Shown: piece after piece, positions 8,225 through 27,793 of the stretch
How the letters are laid out: each line of letters opens with the position of its first letter
Numbering within the stretch: the stretch's first letter is position 1
Virus record (IMG/VR): IMGVR_UViG_3300010885_019080
Coordinates: 1-29,702 of that record
Direction: 5' to 3' (one strand)
Source: a virus
Length of the DNA: 29,702 bases
Program-made: the position numbers and the translations under genes
The notes under the pieces: model-generated
What the model saw: only the letters and a program-made list of their open reading frames with translations
Database searches by the model: none
What the model was told of the DNA's origin: nothing

Positions 8225-8409
8225 TGACGTACATCATAACAGGCTACGACCTGGTAAACGGAGAGCGCACCTCGCATAAGTTGATTAACGAGGTGCGCGT
8301 GGAGTGCATAGCTGACATTGATAAGATGGAGCGAAAAGTTGAAAAGAGATATTATAAACGAACCGGCCACGCTGTTCAGGTGTATGCCATATTCAAACGT
8401 AAGATATGA
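8224..8409 (+). CDS. Small hypothetical protein
   Basis: A 61-residue, basic, mixed alpha/beta protein (MTYIITGYDLVNGERTSHKL...VQVYAIFKRKI). I recognise no family. It is tightly packed between the SSB and DnaA-like genes with overlaps at both ends, which supports translation. Strand-helix-strand order would allow a small nucleic-acid-binding fold, but this is not shown by any motif. Confidence 0.6.
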   Translation: MTYIITGYDLVNGERTSHKLINEVRVECIADIDKMERKVEKRYYKRTGHAVQVYAIFKRKI

Positions 8410-8762
8410 CACAAGTTATAAACTACATAATCATAACAACAACTGATCTTTTAGGAATTCATTATGATGATATTGATAAAGAGTGCAGACAACGAGAAAT
8501 TGTGTATGCCAGATACATCAGCTACGCACTATGCAAGAGATACACAAACCTGACTAATAAAACTATTGGAGAACTGTTCAGTGGTAAATACAACCCATGC
8601 ACTGTTACCCACGGACTGAAGGCAGTTAACAATGCGATACACCTGTATAATCATAAAAAAGTCCGGACAGATATGGGTGAGCTGTTCAGATATGCGGACC
8701 AGGGGATGCGTGATGCAGGGTTCAAGGTTAGATGGAGATCTATGGTTGATGACATATTATAA
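8406..8762 (+). CDS. DnaA domain-IV-like DNA-binding protein
   Basis: A 118-residue protein resembling only the C-terminal DNA-binding domain of DnaA. A helix REIVYARYISYALCKRYTN (29-47) is followed by KTIGELFSGKYNPCTVTHGL (52-71), where the TVTHGLK/AVN part corresponds to the DnaA signature helix (DHxTVxxAxxxI). There is no ATPase domain. Such stand-alone domains occur in phages and could recognise DnaA boxes at the phage or host origin, or regulate transcription. It is the last gene before the late promoter at 8762-8800. Confidence 0.65.
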   Translation: MTQVINYIIITTTDLLGIHYDDIDKECRQREIVYARYISYALCKRYTNLTNKTIGELFSGKYNPCTVTHGLKAVNNAIHLYNHKKVRTDMGELFRYADQGMRDAGFKVRWRSMVDDIL

Positions 8763-13132: not shown

Positions 13133-14326
13133 ATGAACCAAGAAGAACTTGACATTATCGCAGCAGAAGCCGCCAAGGTCGAAAAGAAAATGAACTCCCT
13201 TGTTGATCCGTTGATCAAGAAGTTGGAGAAAGCGGAAGAGGTTACGCCCGCACTGGAAGCCAAGATTAAAGAAGCTGCCGATAAATACATTGGCATGCAG
13301 AAACAATTAGACGAACTGGATATGAAACTTCAGAAAGCAAATGTACCTAATCAATTCGCTCCTTTATCAGAGCAGTTTGAACATGTGATCTCAAAAGCAA
13401 CATGGCTTTCAGAATACAAAGAAAGCAAACGTGGGGGCAAATTGGATCTTAAAGGTATGGACATTCATGCTAAAGTTGGGACCGTAACACGGGTGACCGA
13501 TACCATTCAGCCACAGTTCACACCATTTCAATTCGTACCAGGTCGCAGATTTCACGTGCGTGACATTATACCAGTTGGTACAACCACATCGTCTACCATA
13601 TGGATGCCTTACGAATCCGCTACAACTAACGGAATTGCCCGCGTTGCTGAAGGTGCAGTAAAACCACAATCAGACTTTACCCCTGCCGTTGTTAAATGGC
13701 CCGTTGAAAAGATCGCCACCTGGATCAAGTTCTCAGAAGAAATTCTTGAGGATATGCCAATGTTCACATCTTATCTTACTACTCGTTGGTTGGAGTTGCT
13801 CAAACAAGCTGAAGATACCAAACTGCTCTATGGTTCGGGATCAAGCGATATCAAAGGATTAACTGTTTCAGCTGCTGCTTACGTTGATTCGTTGGCATCT
13901 TCATTGGTTGACAGGTTCATGGTATTGGATGCTGCCACGACTCAGGTTCAGGCTGCAAACTTCTATCCGAACTACATTCTACTTCATCCTACTGATGCCA
14001 TGCTTCTTCGTCAGACACGCGACACAACCGGGGAACCTTATTTCTTCGCATTGGGACAAGGTCAGCCGTTAACAATCAACGGTGCTACTATCATAACAAC
14101 TCCAGCAATGACCGTTGGTGATTTCCTCGTAGGGGACTTCGCAATGGGCGCACAGATTTGGGATCGTAAGGCTGCAAACATCACTTTCTACGACCAGAAT
14201 GAAGATGATGCCAAATACAACCTTATCATGGCTGTAATAGAAGAACGTCTTGCATTGATAACTTACGCATCAACTGCATTCTGTTTCTCATCATTTGGAT
14301 CAGCACTGGCACGCGGATCAGCATAA
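13133..14326 (+). CDS. Major capsid protein (HK97 fold)
   Basis: A 397-residue protein. Residues 1-70 form a charged coiled coil (QEELDIIAAEAAKVEKKMNS and following), the delta domain usually removed by the protease. The rest fits the HK97 capsid: VRDIIPVGTTTSSTIWMPYE, KFSEEILEDMPMFTSYLTTR, the YGSGSSDIKGL segment, NYILLHPTDAMLLRQTRDT and a late VGDFAMGAQIWDRK strand. The gene starts 4 bases after the protease stop and ends before an intrinsic terminator, as suits a highly expressed gene. Confidence 0.92.
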   Translation: MNQEELDIIAAEAAKVEKKMNSLVDPLIKKLEKAEEVTPALEAKIKEAADKYIGMQKQLDELDMKLQKANVPNQFAPLSEQFEHVISKATWLSEYKESKRGGKLDLKGMDIHAKVGTVTRVTDTIQPQFTPFQFVPGRRFHVRDIIPVGTTTSSTIWMPYESATTNGIARVAEGAVKPQSDFTPAVVKWPVEKIATWIKFSEEILEDMPMFTSYLTTRWLELLKQAEDTKLLYGSGSSDIKGLTVSAAAYVDSLASSLVDRFMVLDAATTQVQAANFYPNYILLHPTDAMLLRQTRDTTGEPYFFALGQGQPLTINGATIITTPAMTVGDFLVGDFAMGAQIWDRKAANITFYDQNEDDAKYNLIMAVIEERLALITYASTAFCFSSFGSALARGSA

Positions 14327-14346: not shown

Positions 14347-14377
14347 AAAGGGAGGGGTTAAATCCTCCCTTTTTTTT
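14347..14377 (+). terminator. Intrinsic terminator after the capsid gene
   Basis: A perfect 9-base stem, AAAGGGAGG (14347-14355) with CCTCCCTTT (14364-14372), an 8-base loop and a run of eight T (14370-14377). It lies 20 bases after the capsid stop and 12 bases before the first glycosyltransferase gene. No new promoter is visible after it, so downstream genes would rely on read-through. Confidence 0.88.
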
Positions 14378-14389
14378 AATCTATTCAGA

Positions 14390-14953
14390 ATGAAAACAAA
14401 GATCATCAACTTAGCTAAGAGGACAGACCGATGGGAAGCTGTACAGTTGGAGGTACAGAAATTTGGTATAACTGAATACGAAAGATTTGATGCAATCGAA
14501 GGCGGATATATGGGGTTCAATCGATCCGTTCATAAAGCATTGGAAGGAGAATCAGAATTGTTACTACTTGAGGATGATTGTGTTTTCGAGGCAACGATGG
14601 ATGTTATGATTCAGGCAAAGTCCGAACTTCCTGAAGATTGGGATTTGATGTACCTGGGGGCAAATCTAAAGAGTAAAGTAAATCAGTATTCTGAACATCT
14701 GTACACGTTGACAGATGCATGGACTTCTCACGCCATCCTGTATTCGGATAAGGGGGCAAAATGGTGTTATGAAAACTTTGATCCTGAAGAAGGAACTATA
14801 TATGATGAATGGCTTCGCACTACTGCTCAACGTAGATTGAAATGCTTTGTTATGTGTCCGATGATCGCACTTCAGGCAGATGGATGGTCTGACATTTGGG
14901 GAGCAAACGCAGTTTATGGCATTCAATGGTCATCTAAACATTTCTATAAATGA
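14390..14953 (+). CDS. GT25-like glycosyltransferase
   Basis: A 187-residue protein. It starts MKTKIINLAKRTDRWEAV, matching the N-terminal strand and NLxxRxDR motif of family GT25 (LPS biosynthesis) glycosyltransferases. The metal/nucleotide-binding acidic motif LLLLEDDCVF (57-66, E61-D62-D63) and DWDLMYLGAN follow. The typical late motif with DEWLRTTA (about 139) is also seen. No membrane segment or signal peptide, so it acts in the host cytoplasm. It is the first of five glycosyltransferase genes, and its stop overlaps the next start by 4 bases. Family members transfer galactose or glucose; the sugar and acceptor here are unknown. Confidence 0.82.
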   Translation: MKTKIINLAKRTDRWEAVQLEVQKFGITEYERFDAIEGGYMGFNRSVHKALEGESELLLLEDDCVFEATMDVMIQAKSELPEDWDLMYLGANLKSKVNQYSEHLYTLTDAWTSHAILYSDKGAKWCYENFDPEEGTIYDEWLRTTAQRRLKCFVMCPMIALQADGWSDIWGANAVYGIQWSSKHFYK

Positions 14954-15654
14954 TCCATCACGTTACATACACCGATAAAAACATGACCACCTCCGCGCTA
15001 CATTGTTCGGAATCTGCCACTAAATACGGATGTGATAGTTCGTGCATATATACAGAAATGCAGTTATCAGAAGCATTCAGAGAACGTAATGCATCAATAT
15101 TGGCACAATCACGCGGAGCCGGGTATTGGATATGGAAGCCTCAGATCATACTTCAGGAAATGGAGAAATGTAAAGAGGGGGATTATATTCTATATACCGA
15201 TGCCGGGGTGCAGATTATCGGTGATGTCAGGCAATTGATTTCAAGTGTGGAAGATGGCATGTTGTTATTTGGCGGTCAATATAACAATCATGAATGGACA
15301 AAGGGCGATGTACTTAGTATAATACCTGAAGGCGTTTACAAACAGATTCAGGCATCGGCAATGATTTTTGAATGCACGACTAAAACGGTTAAATTCCTTC
15401 ATCTATGGGCTATGCTTTGTGAAATACCAGGATTTATAGACGATTCACCTTCCAAAACTGAGAATCATCCTGATTTTGTAGAGCATAGACATGATCAGTC
15501 TATCTTAACAGTTTTACAGATTCTATGCAATATCAATAGCCATTGGTGGCCTGCTACATATAATAACGGCAAATTCAATTACCCAAAAAATGAGCATACA
15601 GATTCATATCAGATCATATTCCACCACCACAGAAAACGTAATAACGAATGGTAA
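14950..15654 (+). CDS. Putative glycosyltransferase of the RGxGYWxWKP type
   Basis: A 234-residue protein. SRGAGYWIWKPQIILQEM (54-71) and GDYILYTDAGVQI (77-89) match a widespread but poorly studied glycosyltransferase-like family. There the D-A-G (84-86) probably plays the role of a DxD motif in a GT-A fold. FVEHRHDQSILTVLQI further on is also typical. No membrane segment. It overlaps the genes on both sides (4 and 7 bases), consistent with one transcription unit. Activity is inferred from motif and neighbours; no sugar specificity can be deduced. Confidence 0.7.
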   Translation: MIHHVTYTDKNMTTSALHCSESATKYGCDSSCIYTEMQLSEAFRERNASILAQSRGAGYWIWKPQIILQEMEKCKEGDYILYTDAGVQIIGDVRQLISSVEDGMLLFGGQYNNHEWTKGDVLSIIPEGVYKQIQASAMIFECTTKTVKFLHLWAMLCEIPGFIDDSPSKTENHPDFVEHRHDQSILTVLQILCNINSHWWPATYNNGKFNYPKNEHTDSYQIIFHHHRKRNNEW

Positions 15655-16289
15655 CTATAGTCATACCAACCTACGATATGGAAGGAAAGTCAATTTACTT
15701 CCTTCGCCAAGCTATCAACAGCGTTCGGCAGTTAAGGCGCGGTTATGAAATTATAGTATCCGATGAATCAACAGATTTTCAGGTAGAGGATTATTGTGGT
15801 ATCGCTTCTGTTAAATATTTCAAAAATACAAGATCACCAGGTGCAGCTGGAAATCTTAACAATGCAATAGATCACGCAACAGGGGAAATGATTAAGATAC
15901 TATTTCAAGATGACCAATTGCGGTCCATTGAAGAATTCGATTTCATAGAACATTGGGGGTTCTGCACATCAAAACACAATACTAATCGCGGAGATCATAT
16001 TCCATTCCATTCGCATTCTATAAAAGAATTAGCATTGGGGTGCAATACATACGGATCTCCTTCATCACTTGCATTTAGGAAAACGGATCTTCGATTCAAT
16101 GAATCATTAAGATGGCTGTTTGATTGTGAATTCTACGCGCGAATGACCATTATGTATGGATTGCCAGATTTGGTTAATACATCCGTTGATATTACAGAAT
16201 GGGAAGGGATGGCAACAAATACCATATGCACCGGATCAGTTAGGCTTCAGGATACGGAAATAATTAACAGATTGTATGCTGACATTTAA
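15648..16289 (+). CDS. Family 2 (GT-A fold) glycosyltransferase
   Basis: A 213-residue protein. VTIVIPTYDMEG (2-13), EIIVSDEST (34-42), GAAGNLNNAIDHATGE (65-80) and ILFQDDQ (84-90) are the standard GT2 nucleotide-sugar motifs; the usual DxD reads D88-D89-Q90. The acceptor-side motif is FDCEFYARM (about 164-172). It is shorter than many GT2 enzymes and lacks membrane helices. Acceptor may be a growing glycan or a virion protein. Overlaps the next gene by 14 bases. Confidence 0.85.
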   Translation: MVTIVIPTYDMEGKSIYFLRQAINSVRQLRRGYEIIVSDESTDFQVEDYCGIASVKYFKNTRSPGAAGNLNNAIDHATGEMIKILFQDDQLRSIEEFDFIEHWGFCTSKHNTNRGDHIPFHSHSIKELALGCNTYGSPSSLAFRKTDLRFNESLRWLFDCEFYARMTIMYGLPDLVNTSVDITEWEGMATNTICTGSVRLQDTEIINRLYADI

Positions 16290-17019
16290 AGAACTTGGGA
16301 AATATGGCAGACTTGGCAATCAGATGTTTCAGATAGCCAGCACAATCGGATTAGCAACATCACACGGATATGCGTATGGATTCCCGGAATGGAAGAACTA
16401 CGATCATCTGAATAGATTCGGGAGTGCTGAAGATGTGGACATTCAAAAGTATTTCAAGAACGCATTACCACCAATAGAGCAGCGGAATTATTCTGATTAT
16501 TTCATTCATTGGGGATACCACAACTTCAAAGCATTACCAGACAATATTAATCTATTAGGACACATGCAATCTGAGAAATACTTTGCCCACTGCAAGGATT
16601 TGATACGTCACTACTTTGAATTTACAGATGAATGTGAGCCTATGCCGAAAGAGTCTATTGCTATACATATAAGGCGTGGGGATTACGATGACTCGTACCA
16701 TCCTACAATGAAAGAGAAATATTATAAACAATCTTTAGATTTACTGCCAAACGTACCTAAATTTGTATTCTCAGACGATATAAAAGAGGCTAAGAAAATT
16801 ATAGGAAATGATGCAACATATATTGAAGGCAATCATTATATGAAAGACTTGCAAATGATTAGTAAATGCAGGCACTTCGTTCTTTCAAATTCAACATTCT
16901 GCTGGTGGGGGTGGTGGCTTGCGGATCATGGTAAGTGTATCGCTCCACAAAAATGGTTCGGAGATGTGGCTCAGTTAAGTTCCAAGGATATATATACAGA
17001 CGAAATGATTATAATATGA
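16276..17019 (+). CDS. GT11 alpha-1,2-fucosyltransferase-like enzyme
   Basis: A 247-residue protein. GRLGNQMFQ (11-19), HIRRGDY (131-137) and SNSTFCWWGWWLAD (about 203-216) are the three signature motifs of family GT11 (and its fut2-like relatives), which transfer fucose from GDP-fucose to a galactose or similar residue. The central HIRRGD segment binds the GDP part. No GDP-fucose synthesis genes are in the window, so the donor must come from the host. Family members are usually somewhat longer (near 280-300), but all key motifs are present. Confidence 0.87.
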   Translation: MLTFKELGKYGRLGNQMFQIASTIGLATSHGYAYGFPEWKNYDHLNRFGSAEDVDIQKYFKNALPPIEQRNYSDYFIHWGYHNFKALPDNINLLGHMQSEKYFAHCKDLIRHYFEFTDECEPMPKESIAIHIRRGDYDDSYHPTMKEKYYKQSLDLLPNVPKFVFSDDIKEAKKIIGNDATYIEGNHYMKDLQMISKCRHFVLSNSTFCWWGWWLADHGKCIAPQKWFGDVAQLSSKDIYTDEMIII

Positions 17020-17981
17020 AGATATTCGCACAAGTTCACGCATACCCTACGCGACACAATGCAGGAGCTGAATGGTATCTCCATTCCATGCTTCGCTACC
17101 TTGTTGAACAAGGGCATGAGTGCAGGGTGCTGACCTCGGATATCGCATGTCGGACATTGGATGGTGTTCAACTATTTGAGCAAAATCCGACAAATGAATG
17201 GGAGCTTTCGTTGTGGTGTGATATAATTGTTTCACATTTAGGCCGATCTGGTAGGGCATTTAATTGCGCAAACCAGCATAATAAACCTATTTATATAATT
17301 CTGCACAATACATTCACTAATCGCTTGGTTGAAGTACGGCAGGATGCTTCTTTGATTGTCAATGCTGATTGGGCATTACAAGATTGCTTGGAAAAAGGAT
17401 ACAAGCATCGGATGGCGGTGTTAAGGCCAGCTGTCTTTTTTGATGACTATAATTTCATCCCCGGTAAACGCGAGCATATCAGCCTCATTAATCTTTGGGA
17501 ACGGAAAGGAGGTCAGACATTCGCAGAGATTGCAAGACTAATGACTGATCGTAAATTCCTTGGAGTTAAAGGTGCATACGGAGATCAAATCACTCCAATA
17601 CTTTCAAACGTTGAGTACATCGAAAACACACCATACATTAAGCAGGCTTGTTATGAAAGAACGCGCATCCTTTTGATGCCTTCCGTTTATGAAAGTTATG
17701 GCAGAACAGCAGTTGAATCAATGTGTTCCGGTATTCCGGTCATTGCTTCCGATACTCCTGGACTTCGTGAATCATTGGGAGATTGTGGTATATTCATTGC
17801 ACAAGATTCGCCTATATCAAAATGGGTAGAGGCTATCAAATCGCTGGATGACAAAAAGGTTTATGAAGAATTATCTAAACGTTGTGTCATCCGTGCAGAA
17901 GAACTATTTGAAAAATCACTTAACGAATTAGAAAACATAAACGAATTCATACAATATGAACAGCTACTTAGTGAAGCGTAA
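17016..17981 (+). CDS. Family 4 (GT-B fold) glycosyltransferase
   Basis: A 321-residue protein. It begins MKIFAQVHAYPTRHNAGAEW, the N-terminal GT-B acceptor domain start, with AGAEWYLHSMLRYLVEQGHE typical of GT4. The C-terminal donor domain has VYESYGRTAVESMCSGIPVI (about 225-244), i.e. the E-x7-E retaining motif, then ASDTPGLRESLGDCG. The start at 17016 overlaps the GT11 stop; a longer frame from 16935 exists but lies inside that gene. It is the last of the five glycosyltransferases and overlaps the next phage gene by 26 bases, so the island is seamlessly tied into the structural operon. Confidence 0.85.
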   Translation: MKIFAQVHAYPTRHNAGAEWYLHSMLRYLVEQGHECRVLTSDIACRTLDGVQLFEQNPTNEWELSLWCDIIVSHLGRSGRAFNCANQHNKPIYIILHNTFTNRLVEVRQDASLIVNADWALQDCLEKGYKHRMAVLRPAVFFDDYNFIPGKREHISLINLWERKGGQTFAEIARLMTDRKFLGVKGAYGDQITPILSNVEYIENTPYIKQACYERTRILLMPSVYESYGRTAVESMCSGIPVIASDTPGLRESLGDCGIFIAQDSPISKWVEAIKSLDDKKVYEELSKRCVIRAEELFEKSLNELENINEFIQYEQLLSEA

Positions 17982-18183
17982 CTTTGCAAAGAATTCAGGC
18001 ATGGCGCATACAGGGGACATACTTACTGATCTTCCTGAACCATATGCATCAGACTGGACTGCACTTGGTTTCATTGTTGCTTATACGGCAACATCAGATC
18101 CGATTCCACATACCGTTGAACTGGACCATAAACCACTTATAAAAAGAACAGGCGGAAAGCCTAAAGATCCAAAAACGAAATGA
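17956..18183 (+). CDS. Small protein before the connector gene
   Basis: A 75-residue protein (SYLVKRNFAKNSGMAHTGDI...LPEPYASDWTALGFI) with a basic, lysine-rich C-terminus. No named family recognised. It lies between the glycosyltransferase island and the head-tail connector, overlapping both. In related phages small proteins often sit between the capsid and connector genes. A structural or decoration role is only inferred from position. Confidence 0.6.
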   Translation: MNSYLVKRNFAKNSGMAHTGDILTDLPEPYASDWTALGFIVAYTATSDPIPHTVELDHKPLIKRTGGKPKDPKTK

Positions 18184-18695
18184 AACTGATCACGAAAACA
18201 GATGTAGCAACTGAATCCGTATTGGCTCCAGCCGTTCGTGAATGGCTGGCATTGGATTCAACATCACAAGATGCGATGCTTGCCACGATGGCAAAGGCTG
18301 CCCGGATGAAGATTGAAAGATTAACAGGTAAGGCAATCGGTGCGCGTACTTTGATTTATACAATTCAGATGCCTATATATGGGGTTCTTGATCTACCATA
18401 TCCGCCGGTCGTATCTATTTCAACGGTGAAAACAATCGCAGAAGATGGCACAACTAACACGCTCGGAGTCTCGGATTTCTCGCTTGTGAATGAATCCCTA
18501 TATTGTGCATCAGCCATTGGGTTCGCCGTTGAAGTTGAATACATTACCGGGTTAACTCCTACGGTAACAGAAAATCAATTGATATTAAAACAAACGGCAT
18601 GGGATTATACCCATAGAGGTGATACAGATGTAGCAACATATTCACCAGATGTCTTGAATGAAATCACATCCATAACTATAAATAACGGATTCTAA
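18180..18695 (+). CDS. Head-tail connector (gp6/gp15-like)
   Basis: A 171-residue protein. An N-terminal helical part (TESVLAPAVREWLALDSTSQ, then AMLATMAKAARMKIERLTGK) is followed by beta strands (LPYPPVVSISTVKTI) and a C-terminal helix (NQLILKQTAWDYTHRGD). This is the pattern of HK97 gp6 / SPP1 gp15-type connector proteins that bind the portal ring after packaging. Order relative to its neighbours agrees with this. Confidence 0.8.
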   Translation: MKLITKTDVATESVLAPAVREWLALDSTSQDAMLATMAKAARMKIERLTGKAIGARTLIYTIQMPIYGVLDLPYPPVVSISTVKTIAEDGTTNTLGVSDFSLVNESLYCASAIGFAVEVEYITGLTPTVTENQLILKQTAWDYTHRGDTDVATYSPDVLNEITSITINNGF

Positions 18696-19378
18696 TGGCA
18701 AACGCCCCTTACATCGGACAACTCCGAAGCAGGCTTCAATTCCTGAAGGATACCAAGACATCCGATGGTGCTGGAGGTTTTACGTCTGCTAAATCTGTTG
18801 ACTTTGAAATGTGGGGTTACATCCGGCAGATAAGTGAATCGGAAGCAATGCGAAACGGTCAGGTGGTTGGATACAACTCATATGAGATTTGGGTGCAATA
18901 TCAATCATCTATTATCCCTACACGACAGCATATAATCCTTTACAATAATAAAGCATACACGATAAACGGAACACGTGAGATTGAAGAAAAGAATCGTTGG
19001 ATAGTAATGTCATGTTCACGATACTCAGGATCGGAGGTTGCTGTTATTGAGCGTACTCCGGTAGTTGTATCAATGGGATGGAAACCAACATATATAGAGA
19101 TAGTGTTTAACTATTCGATGTGCAATCCTGCCCCGTTTTTTGCTGATTTTTCAGTTATACTTCAAGTCGGTGGCGGTCCAATCAGTTTATTAAACATCAA
19201 TTCTGTTGCATTTGGTACTACCGATTCCTCATATAGATTATACGGAACATTTACAACCAATACCATGAAAGTCTCAATAGCAAAAGGGAATATAAAAGCT
19301 AATCTGAACGTGATTCCAGGTTATACAAACGATACACTTTTGGAATCTGTAACTGATTATGTAGTGCCTGCGCTATGA
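18695..19378 (+). CDS. Head-tail adaptor fused to an Ig-like C-terminal domain
   Basis: A 227-residue protein, about twice the usual adaptor length. Residues 1-110 match the SPP1 gp16-like adaptor (GQLRSRLQFLKDTKTSDGAG, EMWGYIRQISESEAMRNGQV, NNKAYTINGTREIEEKNRWI). Residues about 118-227 are a separate beta-rich domain. Its motif run YIEIVFNYSMCNP, FFADFSVILQVGGGPI, LLNINSVAFG, TNTMKVSIAKG, ending LESVTDYVV, resembles SwmB/Big_5-type Ig-like domains of secreted Bacteroidetes proteins. Such Ig-like domains on phage virions often bind surface glycans. The fusion assignment is by pattern only. Confidence 0.72.
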   Translation: MANAPYIGQLRSRLQFLKDTKTSDGAGGFTSAKSVDFEMWGYIRQISESEAMRNGQVVGYNSYEIWVQYQSSIIPTRQHIILYNNKAYTINGTREIEEKNRWIVMSCSRYSGSEVAVIERTPVVVSMGWKPTYIEIVFNYSMCNPAPFFADFSVILQVGGGPISLLNINSVAFGTTDSSYRLYGTFTTNTMKVSIAKGNIKANLNVIPGYTNDTLLESVTDYVVPAL

Positions 19379-19848: not shown

Positions 19849-20255
19849 AAGATTCAGCAACCGCAATCCGTTCAGCATTATTCACTCGCATCACCGCACT
19901 TGGCTATGCAGCATATGATACACCTCCCGAAACTACAACCGCTCCATATGTCTACTTATACAACCAATCCAGTTATCAGGATGGCAATCAATCAGAGTTC
20001 GGTCAGGTTGCTTCCATTTCGATAGATGTAGTAACTGAATTTCAGAAAGACTACGGAGGCGGAAAGGTAGCTGATACGATGGTGGATGTCATACTTCAAG
20101 ATGTTTTGAAGTTCGCACCGGCACAGTTGACGGTATCAGGATTCGATTGTATTTCAGTAACATTGGATGGAGTCAACTCCATGCATCTCACATCGGCAAC
20201 AACAACACAACATATCCGCACAATCAAATTAAAATTAATCCTTTATCAAATCTAA
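19845..20255 (+). CDS. Tail completion protein (DUF3168-like)
   Basis: A 136-residue protein. DSATAIRSALFTRITALGYA, the PPETTTAPYVYLYNQS motif and VDVVTEFQKDYGGGKVADTM fit DUF3168 / gpU-like tail terminator proteins that cap the tail tube. Length is normal. It lies at the usual place directly before the major tail protein gene. Confidence 0.8.
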   Translation: MKDSATAIRSALFTRITALGYAAYDTPPETTTAPYVYLYNQSSYQDGNQSEFGQVASISIDVVTEFQKDYGGGKVADTMVDVILQDVLKFAPAQLTVSGFDCISVTLDGVNSMHLTSATTTQHIRTIKLKLILYQI

Positions 20256-20260
20256 AAACA

Positions 20261-20671
20261 ATGACTAAAGTAAATGGAACATTATTTCGCCTTAAAATCG
20301 GCACTTATTTAGTGGGCGCATCGACTGATTCAGAATTCACATTGGAACAGGACGATCCGAAAACAACAACACAAGACGGAAACGGATGGGAAGAGTCCCT
20401 GGATCAGGGTGGTATCCGCAGGGCATCAGGATCTGTTAACGGTCTACTTGACCCTGATGCAAACTACAACGCGGAAGAACTGCTGGATCATATCATCGGA
20501 AATACTACGATGGCAACCGCTCAATATGGGGTTGTCGGTGGTACATATTACACATCAAAGATTAAGATCACGAACTGCAAGATGTCAGGATCAACGGAGA
20601 ATCCTGTTGGCATTTCAATGTCTTGGGTAAGTTCTGGTGCGGTTACAAAAGCAACAACAATGGCATCCTAA
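20261..20671 (+). CDS. Major tail tube protein
   Basis: A 136-residue protein (MTKVNGTLFRLKIGTYLVGA). KINGTLxxLxxGxxxxGxSTDSEFTLEQD, GWEESLDQGGIRRASGSVNG and a closing KITNCKMSGSTENPVGISMS match short major tail proteins of Bacteroidetes siphophages. I use the ATG at 20261, 6 bases after the preceding stop, rather than an earlier in-frame ATG at 20147 inside the upstream gene. It polymerises around the tape measure. Confidence 0.82.
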   Translation: MTKVNGTLFRLKIGTYLVGASTDSEFTLEQDDPKTTTQDGNGWEESLDQGGIRRASGSVNGLLDPDANYNAEELLDHIIGNTTMATAQYGVVGGTYYTSKIKITNCKMSGSTENPVGISMSWVSSGAVTKATTMAS

Positions 20672-26101: not shown

Positions 26102-27793
26102 ATGGCATATCAATTCAATAACGAGGTACTGAATGCGATCCTGCTGGATTTGGGCGGAACAACTACCTATCCGCAAGATATAGACGTATTGAATGCGATC
26201 CTGTTACAGCTCGGAGGCACCGGAGGACATCACTATATGATAGATGCCTACAATGAACTCTGCACGATTCAATCAGTATCGTCAAATCATTACTACTTGA
26301 TTGATGCGCTGAATGCAATCAATATTGGTGGAGGAGGAACGGCTGAAAGATTTGAGTTGCCGGCATTGGTTCAACTTGGGGCAAATGTGAACCAACCATT
26401 AAACCTTTTCAACAAGGCTACGGCAGGGGGACACTCTGAAGATTACCTTCTTTCAGATTTTATACCAGTTGAGGCGTTAACACGATATGATCGTACAAAT
26501 AAATGGATGGTTTATTACTACTATGCAAATAAGGCTAAATTTTTTGAAGATGTGCCTGCTGATTATGATTTTTTAACACCAGCTGATACAGCTTTTATAA
26601 AGGTTTTTGTAGGTAGGACATCGGTAAACACTTTTATGCTTTTGGATTATGGAGTTTCAAAGGCTAAATATCTGAATTATTACAGAACTGATGTTGTTAA
26701 ATTTCACGAAACTTCTGATTTTACAACCGGATTCAATCAAACCGGATTTACTTTAACAAATGGTTTAGCCAGTGCGACAGCAGCAACTTCAATGCTTGTT
26801 TCAACTCGTGATTTTATCTCTGATAATCGAACTTTGAAATATAAAGTGAAAATGGCTGCTGATGCAGTTATTGGAATTGGAACTACAATGTACAATAATA
26901 ACACAGATAGATCAACAGCTTTATTTACAACTTATTGTGTGATTGATTGTGTTAATAAATTACTCAAAGTTATAAAAACAGGGGCTGATCCTGGGGGCGT
27001 TCCAAATCCTACCACTGTACTGGCTTCCGCTGCTATTGCTCAGACTTTGAATGCAACTGATGATTATATTATTGAACTCAAAAGGTTGCGGAAAGTAACT
27101 ACATTAAAATTAACCAATAACAATACTGGTGTTATTGATACAGTTTCATGGAATGGATCAATAGCAATTTTTGCCGATGGTGCCGGAAATCACAGACCGT
27201 ATTATTGTATAGAATTACACAGCGGAGCAAGTTTATCAGTATCACTAATGCAAGTTTACGGTAAAAATTATGAAAGAGTTGTTTTCTTAGGTGATTCAAT
27301 CACAGAGGCAAGTGGCAGGGCGGATACTACCGGAATAGGTTTTAATTATGCTGAAAAACTAATTACATTCTTTAAGGATAATGGACAGATTGTAGCATGT
27401 CAAGGTATGCCGATTACAGGTGCTATTACAGCACTTACAAACGAAGTAATTTACATTAAGCCTAAATACTTAGTTGTAACAATCGGGACAAATGACAGCG
27501 CAACAGAGGCACATTACAACACAATAAAAACATGGTGTACTACTAATGGGGTTACTTTAGTATTAAATCATGTACCTTGTTTTGATGCTGCAAGAACTCC
27601 CACATATCAGGACATTAACGCTGTTATTGACTTGCTTTTGGTTGATGGTGCAAAATTCGATATTGCTACGGCAGTTGGCGGTGTTCCTGCTAATGGTTAC
27701 GATGTGACATTATTCAAGGACACAGTACATCCGAACCAATTAGGTAACAATGCTATGTATACAAGATTTAAAGCTGATATAGCTTACGTTTAG
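26102..27793 (+). CDS. Tail protein with N-terminal repeats and SGNH/GDSL hydrolase domain
   Basis: A 563-residue protein. Residues 8-79 are four 20-residue repeats. Residues about 80-200 and 200-390 are beta-rich, the second resembling a concanavalin/LamG-type sandwich. The C-terminal SGNH hydrolase has block I GDSIT (397-401, nucleophile S399), block III GTND (462-465) and block V DTVH (540-543, D540/H543), so the catalytic residues are complete. Such enzymes deacetylate or de-esterify surface polysaccharide, fitting a tail spike that modifies the host capsule during adsorption. No signal peptide. It has its own late promoter. Confidence 0.82.
   Translation: MAYQFNNEVLNAILLDLGGTTTYPQDIDVLNAILLQLGGTGGHHYMIDAYNELCTIQSVSSNHYYLIDALNAINIGGGGTAERFELPALVQLGANVNQPLNLFNKATAGGHSEDYLLSDFIPVEALTRYDRTNKWMVYYYYANKAKFFEDVPADYDFLTPADTAFIKVFVGRTSVNTFMLLDYGVSKAKYLNYYRTDVVKFHETSDFTTGFNQTGFTLTNGLASATAATSMLVSTRDFISDNRTLKYKVKMAADAVIGIGTTMYNNNTDRSTALFTTYCVIDCVNKLLKVIKTGADPGGVPNPTTVLASAAIAQTLNATDDYIIELKRLRKVTTLKLTNNNTGVIDTVSWNGSIAIFADGAGNHRPYYCIELHSGASLSVSLMQVYGKNYERVVFLGDSITEASGRADTTGIGFNYAEKLITFFKDNGQIVACQGMPITGAITALTNEVIYIKPKYLVVTIGTNDSATEAHYNTIKTWCTTNGVTLVLNHVPCFDAARTPTYQDINAVIDLLLVDGAKFDIATAVGGVPANGYDVTLFKDTVHPNQLGNNAMYTRFKADIAYV
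26123..26338 (+). repeat. Four tandem 20-residue repeats in the tail hydrolase N-terminus
   Basis: Period of exactly 60 bases: copies start at 26123, 26183, 26243 and 26303 (the last partial). In protein they read EVLNAILLDLGGT, DVLNAILLQLGGT, DAYNELCTIQSVS and DALNAINIGGGG, with Ile at position 20 of each full copy. Fourteen bases (tgaatgcgatcctg) are identical in copies 1 and 2, while copies 3 and 4 have diverged. Confidence 0.85.

Follow-up and report, generated by a model that had tools for sequence, protein, structure and literature searches.

The 29,702 nucleotides analysed here (the window) are the linear IMG/VR virus record IMGVR_UViG_3300010885_019080, in which five glycosyltransferase (GT) genes of the + strand, in the order GT25, 'RGxGYWxWKP' type (GYW enzyme), GT2, GT11 and GT4, stand between the HK97-type capsid gene and the connector genes (14390–17981). 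Our analysis suggests that this island is probably a virion-glycosylation cassette, whose products would place a short glycan on virion proteins, on the capsid above all and possibly on the tail tube. Our data establish the genes, their fold classes, the selection acting on them, their synteny with the capsid gene, the swapping of genes inside the island and a distant homology to a reported capsid glycosyltransferase. That the particle is glycosylated seems very probable, since cassettes of this kind also accompany the shell gene of many phages that are not related to one another. An initial annotation, made from the letters of the window, had proposed that a short glycan is put together step by step in the cytoplasm, with a virion protein as its acceptor, and both the capsid-GT4 synteny and the distant homology of GT25 to mycobacteriophage Che8 gp110 lend indirect support to this proposal.

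The association of GT4 with the capsid gene was seen in a search that did not depend on the capsid. An alignment search with GT4 gave 184 relatives, the best 80 of which were kept and, with the other loci added, clustered at 80% identity; of the 52 clusters that allowed a judgement, 48 have a gene for the major capsid protein (MCP) no more than 4 kb upstream of GT4. PF05065 was matched by every MCP representative checked (44/44). Many remote contigs have GT4 immediately behind the capsid gene, with no further GT belonging to the five families in sight. When three clades were searched with the capsid instead, 87 GT4-positive, 7 GT4-negative and 17 undecidable clusters were obtained, where the 87:7 ratio is no general frequency because the queries came from GT4-positive phages. 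We did not find the pairing described in the literature searched, most subscription papers lying outside its reach, and the wider pattern of the pairing plus a swappable cassette is apparently undescribed there as well. As a separate observation, seven loci (L077, L082, L085, L092, L095, L101 and L105) carry two members of the GT4 family behind the capsid, arranged as GT4 - ORF - GT4 (ORF, open reading frame).

Close relatives of the window, found by capsid search, retain GT25 as the first and GT4 as the last gene, while the genes between them are exchanged or absent. The initial annotation had suggested looking for the same gene order in other Bacteroidetes phages. Two relatives (L002, L003) have all five genes. 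At the other extreme L004 has GT25 and GT4 alone, and L005 has a 99-amino-acid ORF between them. Two further loci (L021, L028) contain a GT32-like enzyme in the middle position, and L006 has GT25, two GYW genes, a candidate methyltransferase of FkbM-like type (assigned by eye; a homologue in L032 has no Pfam match), GT2, GT11 and GT4. In further phages the middle slot is filled with class I methyltransferases, or with an FkbM methyltransferase in L052. The GT25, GYW and GT11 genes of L060 and L139 stand upstream of the protease, GT4 still being behind the capsid. Three distant capsid relatives (L013, L016 and L017, ∼31% identity) have no GT of the island families at that place. Two other arrangements were noticed. 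In L124, L129, L131, L136, L142, L143 and L145, several of which come from records of ∼67 kb, a GT25-GYW-...-GT11 series lies between portal and protease and not behind the capsid. L041 contains a sugar-nucleotide gene within its cassette: a cytidylyltransferase (PF02348) is encoded together with an MptE-like protein and a methyltransferase between capsid and GT4 (L041:2740–4410).

The gene arrangement of the window is as first described, with five consecutive genes that overlap successively by 4, 7, 14 and 4 bases, and Pfam bears out the family calls made for GT25, GT2, GT11 and GT4, the first of them exactly at the cut-off. The GT25-type enzyme (14390–14953, +), the first and constant cassette gene in near relatives, scores 24.0 bits against PF01755, mainly over its N-terminal 36 residues, and has an invariant EDD motif. 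The GYW enzyme (14950–15654, +) has neither a Pfam nor a PHROG match in profile scans and carries a YxDAG motif. It had been called a separate fold class on its motif, with structure prediction proposed as a check; its AlphaFold model (predicted local distance difference test score, pLDDT, 93) indicates with high confidence a GT-A fold glycosyltransferase without Pfam family. In the VIA comparison this model reaches Z 14.6 to 2p72, a GT of capsid glycosylation in Chlorovirus PBCV-1, and ∼14 to GT6 enzymes, so that the two are tied, and no sequence family match to GT6 was seen. GT2 (15648–16289, +) matches PF00535 at 1.7e-8. The fucosyltransferase-like GT11 (16276–17019, +) matches phrog_2644 at 2e-56 and PF01531 at 1.9e-20 (73.8 bits, cut-off 23.9), and its HIRRGDY motif agrees with HxRRxD. 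GT4 (17016–17981, +), the constant last gene, has an invariant E-x7-E motif, matches PF13692 (3e-12) and PF00534, and belongs to the phrog_26352 family (1.7e-71, profile positions 7–319 of 346 covered). Homology puts the start of this gene at ATG 17016 and not at GTG 16935. The 26-base overlap of GT4 with the next virion gene, a small conserved ORF at the start of the connector block (17956–18183, +), is confirmed (17956–17981), and the same overlap measures 22–25 bases in L004, L005 and L021.

All five island genes are under purifying selection. Compared with two close relatives, each of them has a ratio of nonsynonymous to synonymous substitution rates (dN/dS) of 0.03–0.13, and most structural genes are similar. 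Such values, together with an arrangement that recurs in independent phages, argue that the island is more than chance. In agreement with the initial annotation, we found no sugar-nucleotide or flippase families among the window ORFs scanned, and no membrane segments in the five island proteins (highest 19-residue Kyte-Doolittle mean 0.98). A DNA search with the island against a phage collection gave no match.

We suggest that these soluble enzymes would act late, in the cytoplasm and on host nucleotide sugars, and that a structural protein would be the direct acceptor on which a short oligosaccharide is built, the MCP being the likeliest and the tail tube a further possible one. GT4, with GT25 in near relatives, would attach or start the chain, since these genes are kept when the other enzymes are lost. 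The exchangeable enzymes between them would extend, branch or cap the chain, so that the sugar pattern would differ from phage to phage. That the interior is exchanged may point to selection for diverse surface sugars, for instance against environmental agents that bind phage particles. Here we infer the donor sugars, the order of addition, the acceptor residue and the benefit. Between capsid gene and island there is a strong terminator-like hairpin (14347–14372, +) with a 10-pair stem followed by a U run. A stable hairpin was found in the capsid-island gap in all 15 loci examined (15/15), and HK97 has an annotated terminator at the equivalent place behind its capsid gene. Because of this hairpin the island is probably transcribed by read-through and expressed below the level of the capsid, which would hold the enzymes at catalytic and not structural levels.

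For virion glycosylation in mycobacteriophage Che8 (gp108-110) we rely on PMC12363180, PMC12619734 and PMC11256854, the first two of which cite Freeman et al. 2023. Virion proteins of mycobacteriophages Che8, Corndog and Myrna are reported to be glycosylated, and Che8 gp110 and Corndog gp38 are reported as essential for capsid glycosylation (PMC12363180); capsid and tail-tube subunits are reported to carry the glycans at their C-termini (PMC12619734). By Pfam Che8 gp110 is a GT25 enzyme (PF01755), and a wide GT25 profile built without gp110 has Che8 gp110 and Dylan gp35 as its sole matches among 1469 background ORFs. By these profiles the window GT25 is homologous to Che8 gp110, if only distantly. 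Like the window, Che8 encodes several GTs including GT25. The Che8 set also has a methyltransferase domain, and the capsid and tail tube of Che8 both end in -GS, at C-termini reported to be glycosylated (PMC12619734). Unlike in the window, the GTs of Che8 lie at the far genome end and not behind the capsid gene, its three GTs include no GT4, GT11 or GYW homologue, the host group is different and sequence similarity is distant. Corndogvirus Dylan also has a GT island in the head operon (O-methyltransferase, GT, GT, GT25-like) with GT25 at its end; this island, however, is between portal and protease, upstream of the capsid, as in the contigs of the L124 set, and gives no GT4, GT2 or GT11 profile match. 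For Corndog glycosylation of the virion is reported (PMC12363180). Gp20 of Streptomyces phage TurkishDelight is a member of this GT4 family too, scoring 458 bits with the GT4 profile, and is encoded three genes behind the capsid, but in contrast to the window two GT4 domains are fused in one protein and no GT25 was found. PBCV-1 also encodes GTs, which put an N-glycan on its capsid protein, and the GYW fold resembles one of these, 2p72; PBCV-1, on the other hand, infects eukaryotes and has a capsid of a different type, and the similarity is at the level of fold (11% identity).

The MCP of the window (13133–14326, +; PF05065, 5e-29), whose AlphaFold model resembles the HK97 capsid (Z 26), ends in ...SALARGSA, the proposed acceptor region. 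In a set of eight capsids, 33–57% identical to the first of the eight, LAxGSA is invariant. The C-terminal tail is not clearly disordered in the capsid fold model. With a rule modelled on Che8, which asks for a serine (Ser) that is preceded by Gly, Ala or Ser and lies within the last two positions, a Ser ending is found in 77 of 87 GT4-positive capsid clusters versus 5 of 24 controls or, when counted by lineage (60% identity), in 17/21 versus 1/9. The tail tube, a protein unrelated to the capsid, shows the ending in 15 of 25 GT4-positive cases and in none of 9 controls, and capsid and tail-tube endings are concordant in 15/18 phages with GT4 versus 0/14 controls. In the window the tail tube (20147–20671, +; PF06199, 3.9e-8), the start codon of which may be further in, ends in ...ATTMAS and is a possible second acceptor. 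Capsids of the Che8 type differ in a like manner. Those of Che8 and prophiGD57-2, two phages that have GT25, end in GS, and so does the capsid of Dylan; those of Dubu, AGM1, phiSASD1 and D6E have no GS ending, and these relatives have no match to PF01755 or PF00535, the two families by which their GT-less status was judged. Taken together, the tail of small residues plus Ser on capsid and tail tube appears to be the best candidate for the glycan site.

Several observations weigh against this site or against the glycosylation reading in general. The HK97 capsid ends in SSGS and is a counterexample to the rule, several GT4-less capsids of Bacteroidota prophages end in SAS, and L123-type phages have the enzymes and no Ser ending. 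The rule itself was picked after part of the data had been seen, and the counts ignore kinship. The link between GT25 and gp110 is remote: a score of 31 bits was obtained with the wide profile, the profile-profile score is weak and Che8 gp110 was missed by a five-sequence GT25 profile, so the homology is supported by the wide profile together with the common Pfam family. The Ser ending at first looked like a clean marker, but wider controls (HK97 and the Bacteroidota prophages) showed that it is not specific, and it is kept as suggestive only. In relatives lacking GT4 the ending is far rarer. Apart from this, we noticed that mEp390 (L368), a relative of HK97, encodes a GT25 like Che8 gp110 and has a tail protein ending in ASGS; the tail protein of HK97 (L369) ends in LTIS, and the capsids of both phages end in SSGS.

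It is also conceivable, though unlikely, that some other protein of the virion, such as a connector, decoration or tail fibre protein, is glycosylated by the cassette, whose place behind the capsid gene would then serve late expression only. The overlap couples GT4 to ORF 17956 and the adaptor, and the dN/dS of the window adaptor is relatively high (0.22–0.34 versus two relatives). Against this, the capsid gene is the one kept beside GT4 across remote phages. The initial annotation had named the capsid or the Ig-like domain of the adaptor as targets; of these the capsid is favoured, and the Ig-like domain was dropped because Pfam finds Phage_HCP as the sole match in 18695–19378 and no homologue of the head-closure protein of that annotation could be detected in L004, L006 and L021. 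Since these phages retain the cassette, the latter fact also counts against a target outside the capsid.

Remodelling of a host surface glycan during infection, as in superinfection exclusion or O-antigen conversion, is still less likely. GT11 and GT25 are common in lipopolysaccharide loci, PHROG files such phage GTs under moron/host-takeover genes, and GT2 has a weak match to the GtrB-like phrog_841. The components expected of a gtrABC-type O-antigen conversion module, however, namely the GtrA flippase and membrane-bound GtrB/Gtr transferases, were not found in the island or flanking ORFs. The island sits between capsid and connector, its synteny is with the capsid and not with early or lysogeny genes, and the distant homology is to a capsid GT. 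T4-like glycosylation of modified bases of the phage DNA can be regarded as very improbable: the best PHROG match of GT25 is a glucosyltransferase (phrog_2835), but the island genes are not with replication genes, and no gene of the thymidylate-synthase family (hydroxymethylase) was found in the window or in three related records, possibly fragments. Equally improbable is a recombination hotspot in the capsid-connector gap that gathers passing genes, so that the GTs have no common task, for while the interior differs strongly among relatives, the cargo examined consists nearly entirely of GTs, methyltransferases and one sugar-nucleotide gene, GT4 is constant and the dN/dS values are low.

In the literature we read, virion glycosylation of tailed phages is documented for a few mycobacteriophages, and to judge by the capsid-GT4 pairing it may well be widespread. 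We would tentatively, and with somewhat more doubt than belief, join the observations into a single picture, in which a dedicated GT4 family accompanies the capsid gene of HK97 type, has exchangeable partners and puts lineage-specific glycans on the Ser tail of capsid and tail tube, giving sugar 'glycotypes', so that particle glycosylation would be common in tailed phages far beyond mycobacteriophages. The pairing provides a simple rule to find virion glycosylation and indicates the likely attachment region. Prophage-like contigs with a single GT4 right behind the capsid could serve as minimal systems for testing the attaching enzyme. If the virion-glycosylation reading is true, it would also give a function to phrog_26352, now marked in PHROG as 'unknown function'.

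The late region of the window is siphovirus-like. Terminase, portal, head morphogenesis, protease and HK97-type capsid genes precede the island, with the prohead protease and capsid as its upstream flank; downstream follow the small ORF 17956, adaptor, head closure, neck, tail tube, tape measure, tail genes and an M15 endolysin. A BT4734-like domain is present in the primase region. A capsid gene 64% identical to that of the window was found in a contig of a Bacteroidetes metagenome-assembled genome (MAG; L165:834–1940). It stands alone: the 1.3 kb behind it contain no GT or head genes and are followed by cellular-looking ORFs on the opposite strand, so the gene is possibly a prophage remnant. 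The guess of a Bacteroidetes host is consistent with this relative and with the BT4734-like domain. A search of 296 genomes from the phylum of this MAG (E 1e-30) gave no member of the GT4 family; it had no positive control and hence is no evidence of absence. Directly upstream of the terminase gene the window encodes a small protein in which the C-terminal helix-turn-helix domain of DnaA is recognised (8406–8762; PF08299, 1.9e-11). In the tail region there is a protein with a GDSL lipase/esterase domain (26102–27793; PF00657), for which host surface glycans are perhaps the substrate.

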